Of a DNA stretch of 64,000 nucleotides, positions 21,565 to 47,540 are shown one piece after another. A program made the translations under genes and the position numbers. The first letter of the stretch is position 1. Every line of letters starts with the position of its first letter. The notes under the pieces are model-generated. The model was not told where the DNA came from and searched no databases. It saw nothing but the letters and a program-made list of their open reading frames with translations. Source of the stretch: Aggregicoccus sp. 17bor-14 (GTDB lineage Bacteria > Myxococcota > Myxococcia > Myxococcales > Myxococcaceae); contig NZ_VJZZ01000007.1 in assembly GCF_009659535.1 (NCBI RefSeq), forward strand, positions 248,001 to 312,000, read 5' to 3'.

Positions 21565-21602
21565 CCCTCACCCTGACCCTCTCCCAGGGGGAGAGGGGAC
21601 AC
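21565..21602. repeat. Dispersed palindromic repeat, copy 1 (convergent junction)
   Basis: A roughly 38-base element with hairpin arms CCCTCTCCC (21577-21585) and GGGAGAGGG (21589-21597), flanked by CCCTCACCCTGA on one side and GACAC on the other. Near-identical elements occur at 45052-45090 (opposite orientation) and 47503-47540. All three lie between convergent gene ends, so a bidirectional terminator or REP-like role is likely. Confidence 0.7.
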
Positions 21603-44122: not shown

Positions 44123-44989
44123 ATGGCTGAGGTCCCCGAGGTAGAGATGCTCGCGCGCGGGCTGCGCGAGGCGGTGGTGGGTCGCCGGTGGACGGGCGCC
44201 GAGGTGCTGGTGCCCGAGGCCGTGCGGTTCCCCGCGGCCCCCGAGCTCGGCTCGCGGCTCGCAGGCCGGCAGGTGCTCTCGGCCACGCGCCGCGCGAAGC
44301 ACCTGCTCATGCCGCTCGACGATGGGCAGACGCTCGCGGTGCACCTGATGCTGTGGGGAGACCTCAAGCTGCGGCCCGCCGGTGCAGAGCGGAAGCCCGC
44401 CACCCTCGTGGTGTTCGGGCTGGAGGGCGACGAGGAGTTGCACTTCACCGACACGCTCGGCTACGCGCGCACCGCGCTCGCGCGGCACGCGGAGCTCGCG
44501 CAGCGGCTGAAGCTCGATGAACTGGGGCCCGAGGTGTTGGACCCGAGCTGGGGACCCGAGGTGCTCGCGCAGCGGCTCGCGCGCCGGCGCTCGCCGCTCA
44601 AGACGCTGCTGCTGGATCAGAACGTGGTCGCCGGCATGGGCAACCGCGATGCGGACGAGAGCCTGTGGGAGGCGGGCATCGACCCGCGCCGCACCGCTGC
44701 GTCACTCAGCGGCGAAGAGGTGGTGCGGCTCGCCAGGACGATGCGGCAGGTGCTCGAGGACGGGCTCGCGCTGGGCGGTACGCAGAAGGACCTGTACGGC
44801 ACGAAGGGCCGCGCGCTGCACCAGCGCAACGTGTTCGAGCGCCACGGGCAGGCGTGCCCGCGCTGCGGCGAGGAGGTGCAGCGCGTGCGGCTCGGCGGGC
44901 GCAACACGCACTACTGCGCGCGCTGTCAGCCGGCTGCAGGAGCCTCGCCCCCCGCCCCCGCGCCCGCTCAGTCCGACTGGCTGTTCTGA
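44123..44989 (+). CDS. Fpg/Nei-type DNA glycosylase, non-canonical N-terminus
   Basis: A 288-residue base-excision repair type protein. The Fpg fold is clear: the N-terminal PEVEML region, the H2TH part (LLLDQNVVAGMGNRDADESLWEAG) and a zinc finger (CPRCGEEV, then THYCARCQ). Conserved basic and Gly residues GGTQKDLYGTKGRALHQRNVF precede the finger. The mature enzyme should start with the catalytic Pro-Glu, but here the sequence reads MAEVPEVE, so Pro is Ala while Glu3 is kept. The AP-lyase/glycosylase mechanism normally needs that proline's secondary amine. Either activity is lost or changed, or the protein is a specialised member. No alternative start restores a Pro. It converges with the Sua5 gene across repeat copy 2. 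Confidence 0.85.
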   Translation: MAEVPEVEMLARGLREAVVGRRWTGAEVLVPEAVRFPAAPELGSRLAGRQVLSATRRAKHLLMPLDDGQTLAVHLMLWGDLKLRPAGAERKPATLVVFGLEGDEELHFTDTLGYARTALARHAELAQRLKLDELGPEVLDPSWGPEVLAQRLARRRSPLKTLLLDQNVVAGMGNRDADESLWEAGIDPRRTAASLSGEEVVRLARTMRQVLEDGLALGGTQKDLYGTKGRALHQRNVFERHGQACPRCGEEVQRVRLGGRNTHYCARCQPAAGASPPAPAPAQSDWLF

Positions 44990-45051: not shown

Positions 45052-45090
45052 GTGTCCCCCTCTCCCTCTGGGAGAGGGACGGGGTGAGGG
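45052..45090. repeat. Dispersed palindromic repeat, copy 2 (convergent junction, inverted)
   Basis: Hairpin arms CCCTCTCCC (45058-45066) and GGGAGAGGG (45070-45078) with a 3-base loop, then GGGGTGAGGG. It is the reverse complement of the copy at 21565-21602 with few differences and again lies between convergent stops (glycosylase and Sua5 genes). Confidence 0.7.
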
Positions 45091-47502: not shown

Positions 47503-47540
47503 CCCCACCCCGACCTCTCCGAGAGGGAGAGGGAGGACAC
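47503..47540. repeat. Dispersed palindromic repeat, copy 3 (convergent junction)
   Basis: Arms CCTCTCC (47514-47520) and GGAGAGG (47526-47532), preceded by CCCCACCCCGA and followed by GACAC. It has the same orientation as copy 1. It lies between the TIGR01777-type gene and the response regulator gene, which converge. Confidence 0.65.

Follow-up and report, generated by a model that had tools for sequence, protein, structure and literature searches.

The window analyzed here, a stretch of 64,000 nucleotides of Aggregicoccus sp. 17bor-14 DNA, carries a gene for a protein of the Fpg family whose features are collected in Table 1. The protein opens with MAEVPEVEMLARG and reads MAEVPEVE at its N terminus, with alanine instead of the catalytic proline. 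A previous sequence-only reading of the window had made this claim, and it holds. The in-frame TAG excludes a longer protein with another N terminus, and in the alignment that the reading had proposed to see whether alanine is fixed, codon 2 specifies alanine in all 47 distinct orthologs with a readable N terminus (39 of 96 Myxococcaceae genomes and 8 Chloroflexota). These orthologs write the residue with four different codons (GCC in 23, GCG in 15, GCA in 6, and GCT in 3). Together with the TAG, this rules out both a wrong start and a sequencing error at codon 2, the latter being one circumstance under which the earlier claim was expected to fall. In most Myxococcaceae orthologs, a GGAGG-like ribosome site lies approximately 6 to 12 bases before the GTG or ATG that precedes the alanine codon, which supports the same start in those genes. 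A good ribosome site was not found at the start of the window gene itself.

Table 1. Coordinates of the Fpg-family gene and of its domains and key residues in the window
Feature	Position	Strand	Basis
Fpg-family protein with N-terminal Ala, 288 aa, ATG start	44123..44989	+	ORF; Pfam and NCBIfam matches
In-frame TAG that fixes the start codon	44117..44119	+	Two codons before ATG
Codon 2, GCT (Ala), where Fpg has its catalytic proline	44126..44128	+	Ala in 47/47 orthologs; Pro in 54/54 distinct Pro-type sequences
Glu3, conserved catalytic acid	44129..44131	+	Glu in 47/47
Fpg N-terminal domain, PF01149	44123..44455	+	Pfam, residues 1-111
Lys59 (Bst Lys60), retained phosphate-binding lysine	44297..44299	+	Lys in 47/47
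Leu77, replacing void-filler Met77	44351..44353	+	Leu in 47/47; Pro-type: Leu 5/54, Val 1/54
Leu112, replacing void-filler and opposite-base reader Arg112	44456..44458	+	Leu in 44/47, Lys in 3/47; Pro-type: Arg 51/54
Tyr114, replacing wedge Phe114	44462..44464	+	Tyr in 44/47, Phe in 3/47; Pro-type: Phe 48/54, Leu 6/54
H2TH DNA-binding domain, PF06831	44522..44785	+	Pfam, residues 134-221
Asn174-Arg175-Asp176 (GN-RD for GN-IY of Fpg)	44642..44650	+	Arg and Asp in 47/47; Pro-type: Ile/Met then Tyr/His in 54/54
Fpg/IleRS zinc finger, PF06827, with Cys245, Cys248, Cys265, Cys268, and Arg260	44846..44932	+	Pfam, alignment

Membership in the Fpg/Nei superfamily is evident from the three Pfam domains, which all score above their cut-offs (Fpg N-terminal domain, 85.0 bits against 25.5; H2TH, 80.3 against 34.7; zinc finger, 40.0 against 21.3), and from a match to the fold of MutM. 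The residues Glu3, Lys60, Asn174, and Arg264 that form the superfamily set are all present. Retention of Glu3, the H2TH region, and the zinc finger had also been noted from the sequence, as had selection on the fold. The latter agrees with a median pairwise dN/dS of 0.247 (range 0.066 to 0.507) among the 39 Myxococcaceae sequences, for which the dS filter kept 740 of 741 pairs.

Distribution, descent, and genomic setting

Only some myxobacteria have the Ala-type protein, and it is found in Chloroflexota as well, which extends what had been noticed from the window. An ortholog at 62 to 67% identity is present in 41 of the 96 Myxococcaceae genomes searched, of which two (G065 and G055) lack the N-terminal part of the match, and three of the 96 (G054, G062, and G076) hold remnants only. 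Given such frequent loss of the gene in Myxococcaceae, its job is dispensable. Copies that are truncated or internally deleted are found in five Myxococcaceae genomes (L054, L056, L057, L058, and L059); one of these, L057, retains the first ~20 codons fused to the GN-RD region.

Among 158 genomes of the GTDB class that includes a Chloroflexales metagenome-assembled genome (MAG), nine have a match at E ≤ 1e-60. Eight of these matches carry Ala2 (six AEVPEVE and two AELPEVE), and one (L097) carries proline. A wider Chloroflexota search gave matches in 197 of 400 genomes at E ≤ 1e-40, with N termini read for a part of them. One locus labeled Candidatus Gracilibacteria (L009) belongs to a 5.8-Mb genome (G199) that GTDB assigns to the class of the Chloroflexales MAG, and it is probably mislabeled. 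A scan of genome contigs returned seven loci and recovered just 2 of the intact Myxococcaceae copies, which number at least 39. Its sensitivity was therefore low, and the protein might occur in other phyla.

A second, canonical Fpg, for which the sequence-only reading had suggested a search, is encoded in the same genome, whose assembly of 38 contigs spans 6.92 Mb at 99.95% completeness. This PF01149 gene (G000:C10:86097) reads MPELPEVE, and its product is 35% identical to the window protein. Ten further Ala-type hosts were searched, and 8 of them also have a gene with this N terminus; eight further canonical Fpgs of Myxococcaceae begin in the same way. Four of five Chloroflexota hosts searched have a second PF01149 gene, and the N terminus of the one that was read (G196) is again MPELPEVE. 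Only the Ala-type gene, and no Pro-type Fpg, was found in a draft genome of 1080 contigs (G061) and in a MAG (G197), which may reflect assembly gaps. In addition, some Myxococcaceae genomes hold a third Fpg/Nei paralog (L135-L139) whose starts, where read, are MPEGHSIH or MPEGNIIH. We take this paralog to be Nei2-like, and it was not found among the PF01149 genes of the window genome.

Trees built without the first eight alignment columns unite the Ala-type sequences in one group. Support is 100/99 in a 64-row tree that includes 26 of the 47, and 100/100 in an 83-row tree that includes 18 and whose bootstrap is not fully settled. The nearest Pro-type rows are Chloroflexota paralogs, first L061 and then L070 and L078, with placement support of 99/89 and 98/94 in the 64-row tree and of 96/81 and 99/88 in the 83-row tree with its unsettled bootstrap. 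L061 has Leu for Met77 and Ala for Arg112, and L070 and L078 have Val/Ser/Leu and Leu/Ser/Leu at positions 77/112/114. All three keep Pro2, the Ile-Tyr pair, and a full-length capping loop. Because these nearest relatives have changed void-fillers yet retain Pro2 and Ile-Tyr, comparison of the sequences suggests, as the simplest order, that the void-fillers changed first and that the nucleophile and the Glu-holding pair followed. A more canonical Pro-type Fpg coexists in two of these genomes (L099 with L061 and L098 with L070). Furthermore, since all Ala-type proteins share a single origin, the coupling of Ala2 with Arg-Asp counts as one event and not as repeated evidence.

The root of the Ala clade falls at different places in the two trees, of which the 83-row one has the unsettled bootstrap, and the donor of the gene may have been on either the Chloroflexota or the Myxococcaceae side. 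Pro-type sampling was almost confined to Chloroflexota and Myxococcota, mostly picked by similarity to the query, and thus the nearest Pro-type relative may sit in an unsampled phylum. Five Chloroflexota Pro-type sequences (L061, L070, L078, L101, and L112) have altered void-fillers or very short capping loops. They apparently make up a broader group of unusual Fpgs close to the Ala clade.

Gene neighborhoods were compared over flanks of only ~1.5 kb for most loci. Inspection by eye of six loci with longer flanks revealed no neighborhood common to both phyla. Within groups, some neighbors recur: rtcA is shared by g5 and some of g19, 15 loci have a response-regulator gene, and L006 and L007 have a thioesterase-like neighbor in common. 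Every one of the 16 g5 genomes, together with 14 g19 genomes, has this rtcA homolog, presumably a gene for an RNA 3′-phosphate cyclase-like protein, close to the Ala-type gene or to what is left of it (30 loci among L003, L004, and L014-L059). In L003, an ORF that we assume to be RtcB-like precedes the gene region. From this adjacency in other Myxococcaceae one might imagine that the protein was recruited to an RNA-related or other non-repair role. However, the rtcA homolog is absent from the 64-kb window, from the Chloroflexota loci, and from the ~1.5-kb flanks of four g6 loci, and we take the neighbors in the window to be SelO-like and threonylcarbamoyl-AMP synthase-like genes. Such a recruitment therefore seems highly improbable.

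A mobile-element origin was considered and rejected. There was no close relative in 31 plasmid records (top identity 36.7% among the best 20 of 31, the rest below 60%) or in 35 phage records (36.0% among the best 20 of 35, the rest below 60%), and IMG/VR contained no match to the peptide patterns of the window protein. Separately, a dispersed REP-like palindrome, CCCTCTCCC-N4-GGAGAGGG, occurs with near forms at positions 45058-45078, 21577-21597, and 47513-47531 of the window. Genome-wide, it has 215 forward and 216 reverse matches with at most one mismatch, and the reversed control pattern has 0.

Active-site changes and candidate activities

The alanine at position 2 belongs to a set of changes, including those of the void-fillers and of GN-IY to GN-RD, that the sequence-only reading had not described. 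We recounted these in an alignment of the 47 Ala-type sequences, 54 distinct Pro-type sequences (37 plus 17 added, selected largely for their resemblance to the query rather than at random), and MutM, with Bst numbering. All 47 Ala-type sequences have Ala2, Leu77, Ala115, Arg175, and Asp176, and most have Leu112 (44, with Lys in 3) and Tyr114 (44, with Phe in 3). The Pro-type sequences have Pro2 in all 54, Met77 in 48 (Leu in 5, Val in 1), Arg112 in 51 (Ser in 2, Ala in 1), Phe114 in 48 (Leu in 6), Gly115 in 49 (Ala in 4, Thr in 1), Ile175 in 52 (Met in 2), and Tyr176 in 53 (His in 1). Hence Ala2, Arg175, and Asp176 cleanly separate the two types, and there is overlap at Leu77 and Ala115. A short capping loop was dropped as a mark of the clade: it has 12 residues in 47/47 Ala-type sequences against 16 in MutM, yet 12 or 11 in 7 of the 54 Pro-type sequences.

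Much of the remaining active site is unchanged. Glu3, Glu6, Lys60, and His74 are each present in 47/47, Asn174 in 46/47, Arg264 in 43/46, and the four zinc cysteines in 46/46, with one sequence stopping before them. The exceptions at Arg264 are three deep Chloroflexota members with Leu, Gln, or Ala, one of which (L095) also has Ile for Asn174, and thus some of the clade may be on the way to losing catalysis. Codon 175 is written with four arginine codons, which, like the four alanine codons at position 2, indicates that selection acts on the amino acids. The Ala-type protein is a genuine conserved variant of Fpg and not an artifact.

With moderate confidence, we favor the view that it is a re-tuned but catalytically competent Fpg paralog that uses the α-amine of alanine as a glycosylase, has weak or uncoupled AP lyase activity, and acts on a target other than 8-oxoG:C. 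Alanine is a good substrate for methionine aminopeptidase, and Met1 is presumably removed. The free α-amine would then attack the damaged nucleotide at C1′, with Glu3 protonating O4′. The primary amine of alanine, being less favorably positioned than that of proline, might leave base excision intact but β/δ-elimination weak or uncoupled, yielding a mostly monofunctional glycosylase. Since the side chains for filling the hole and for reading the opposite C differ here, the target is probably not duplex 8-oxoG:C, which would be left to the canonical Fpg. The substrate can be guessed from the residues as another lesion or DNA context, perhaps ring-opened or hydantoin bases, or single-stranded or branched DNA. 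The invariance of Ala2, Leu77, Arg175, and Asp176 alongside Glu3, Glu6, Lys60, and His74 speaks for this proposal, as do the purifying selection, the predicted Fpg fold, and the coexisting canonical Fpg. By analogy, the large losses reported for the engineered proteins NEIL1 P2G and MsNei2 P2C (PMC10164570, PMC11323726) speak against it, as do the possible drift in the deep Chloroflexota members, the frequent loss of the gene, and the occurrence of some of its changes among Pro-type sequences.

Several precedents are described in the literature. MsNei2 P2A loses AP lyase activity and keeps 5-hydroxyuracil glycosylase activity and in vivo function on psoralen crosslinks, P2C loses 5-hydroxyuracil glycosylase activity with complementation still seen, and the glycosylase activity of MsNei2 requires Glu3 and the lysine (PMC11323726). 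In NEIL1 P2G, the glycine amine bonds C1′, with limited residual glycosylase and lyase activity and no nicking of thymine-glycol DNA (PMC10164570). E. coli Fpg P2G and P2T, as cited in that paper, retain 10% activity on Fapy-dG. NEIL3, with valine, is the one natural non-proline exception named in the portion of PMC11323726 available. It is a mainly monofunctional glycosylase that prefers single-stranded DNA (PMC9737245, PMC5727206), and its V2P mutation restores coupled incision (PMC5727206). Among the roles that the sequence-only reading had offered, a mono-functional variant using a primary amine would best fit NEIL3 Val2, MsNei2 P2A, and NEIL1 P2G, and retention of the other residues for catalysis and phosphate binding makes a damage sensor less likely.

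Perhaps the alanine amine does all that proline does, including efficient β/δ-elimination, such that the protein is an ordinary bifunctional Fpg in which the other changes shift only the preference for lesion or opposite base. Most other catalytic residues are indeed retained, the predicted fold is that of Fpg without rearrangement, and the NCBI bifunctional-Fpg models PRK01103 and TIGR00577 are passed, if narrowly (216.8 against 212 bits and 206.0 against 203.3 bits, margins of 4.8 and 2.7). However, AP-lyase or coupled activity falls strongly when the proline of superfamily members is replaced by engineering (PMC11323726, PMC10164570), and NEIL3, which naturally has valine, is mostly monofunctional (PMC5727206). 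We thus regard this possibility as unlikely. The window protein has neither the catalytic proline nor the void-filling triad Met77/Arg112/Phe114 of bifunctional MutM/Fpg, having Ala, Leu, Leu, and Tyr at these places, and the triad also varies among some of the 54 aligned Pro-type sequences. Its automatic naming as a bifunctional Fpg is probably an over-call, and the same warning applies to Ala-type genes at large, for which this annotation is probably wrong.

The damage sensor, or a DNA-bending protein, would be a catalytically dead protein that keeps the Fpg fold and its grip on DNA. Loss of the canonical nucleophile, the changed residues around the catalytic Glu, and the losses of Arg264 in 3/46 and of Asn174 in 1/47 members are all compatible with such a role. 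In contrast, Glu3, Glu6, and Lys60 are invariant, and the glutamate (Glu3) and lysine are needed for glycosylase activity in MsNei2 (PMC11323726). A dead sensor would also be expected to retain the side chains that fill the void and bend the DNA, and these are altered here. A sensor therefore seems rather improbable.

In a further scheme, the catalytic center would have been rebuilt, with Asp176 and Arg175 beside Glu3 activating water or positioning the alanine amine to give a hydrolytic monofunctional glycosylase. In L. lactis Fpg, the backbone amides of Ile172/Tyr173 hold the catalytic Glu, and the void-filling Arg109 hydrogen-bonds the opposite C (PMC5422863). Judged by motifs, these residues would correspond to Bst Ile175/Tyr176 and Arg112, respectively. 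The joint presence of Ala2, Arg175, and Asp176 in 47/47 sequences and in none of the 54 distinct Pro-type sequences would suit such a rebuilding, but with a single origin the association may simply be inherited. Moreover, the contact in Fpg is made by backbone amides and not by side chains, and the side chains may point elsewhere. We consider this scheme very unlikely.

Relation to known Fpg/Nei enzymes

The N-terminal proline is treated as a signature of Fpg/Nei catalysis, and a natural Ala clade departs from it. A family survey (PMC3188539) recognizes nine clades, lists P2 and E3 among the first-shell residues conserved family-wide, and describes its clade BaFpg2 as a 'narrow bacterial distribution of Fpg that includes Actinomycetes'. 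No description of an Ala-type Fpg clade was found in full-text literature searches, which are weak for subscription papers because these lie mostly outside their coverage. The clade therefore appears to be a new form of Fpg, as far as BaFpg2 can be judged from its description. Together with its Pro-type sister paralogs, it offers a direct test of which residues part base excision from strand cutting.

The closest known structure is that of MutM/Fpg from Geobacillus stearothermophilus (PDB 1r2y/1l1t). An AlphaFold2 model from an eight-sequence input (pLDDT 88.2, pTM 0.83) has low confidence in the C-terminal tail (residues 279-288) and a dip near residues 231-240, just past the capping loop. 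Its best solved match is MutM with 8-oxoG DNA (1r2y; Z 32.8, rmsd 2.0 over 267 residues), in an alignment that begins at residue 2 of both model and chain. The two proteins share the fold (36% identity), the three Pfam domains, Glu3, Glu6, Lys60, Asn174, Arg264, and the zinc cysteines. Unlike MutM, the window protein has Ala for the N-terminal Pro, Leu for Met77, Leu for Arg112, Tyr for Phe114, Arg-Asp for Ile175-Tyr176, and a capping loop of 12 rather than 16 residues. The PDB matches also include the MutM mutants R112A, M77A, and F114A, and thus the positions changed here have already been studied experimentally in MutM.

The Chloroflexota paralogs L061, L070, and L078 resemble the window protein in their changed void-fillers and differ from it in the Pro2, Ile-Tyr, and loop length noted above. 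Mycobacterial Nei2 is likewise a bacterial Fpg/Nei enzyme, and its glycosylase survives the change of Pro2 to Ala (PMC11323726). However, wild-type Nei2 has proline, and the window protein scores 79.3 bits with the actinobacterial Nei2 model NF040775, far below the cut-off of 400.

Vertebrate NEIL3 shares with the window protein an N-terminal residue other than proline within the Fpg/Nei fold, and it also lacks part of the void-filling set. Perhaps this bacterial clade has arrived independently at the NEIL3 solution, with a small residue in place of Pro, altered duplex-reading side chains, and an Arg-Asp Glu-holding pair, to give an essentially monofunctional glycosylase for lesions in non-duplex or crosslinked DNA beside an ordinary Fpg. 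We hold this idea only tentatively, as a possibility that is doubtful but worth bearing in mind. The two proteins differ in that the N-terminal residue is Ala in one and Val in the other, and the window protein has no extra C-terminal zinc fingers, with only the three Fpg domains in its 288 residues. It is also far nearer in sequence to bacterial Fpg: in the same profile search, the MutM chain scores 217.6 bits and the NEIL3 chains 42 to 44 bits.
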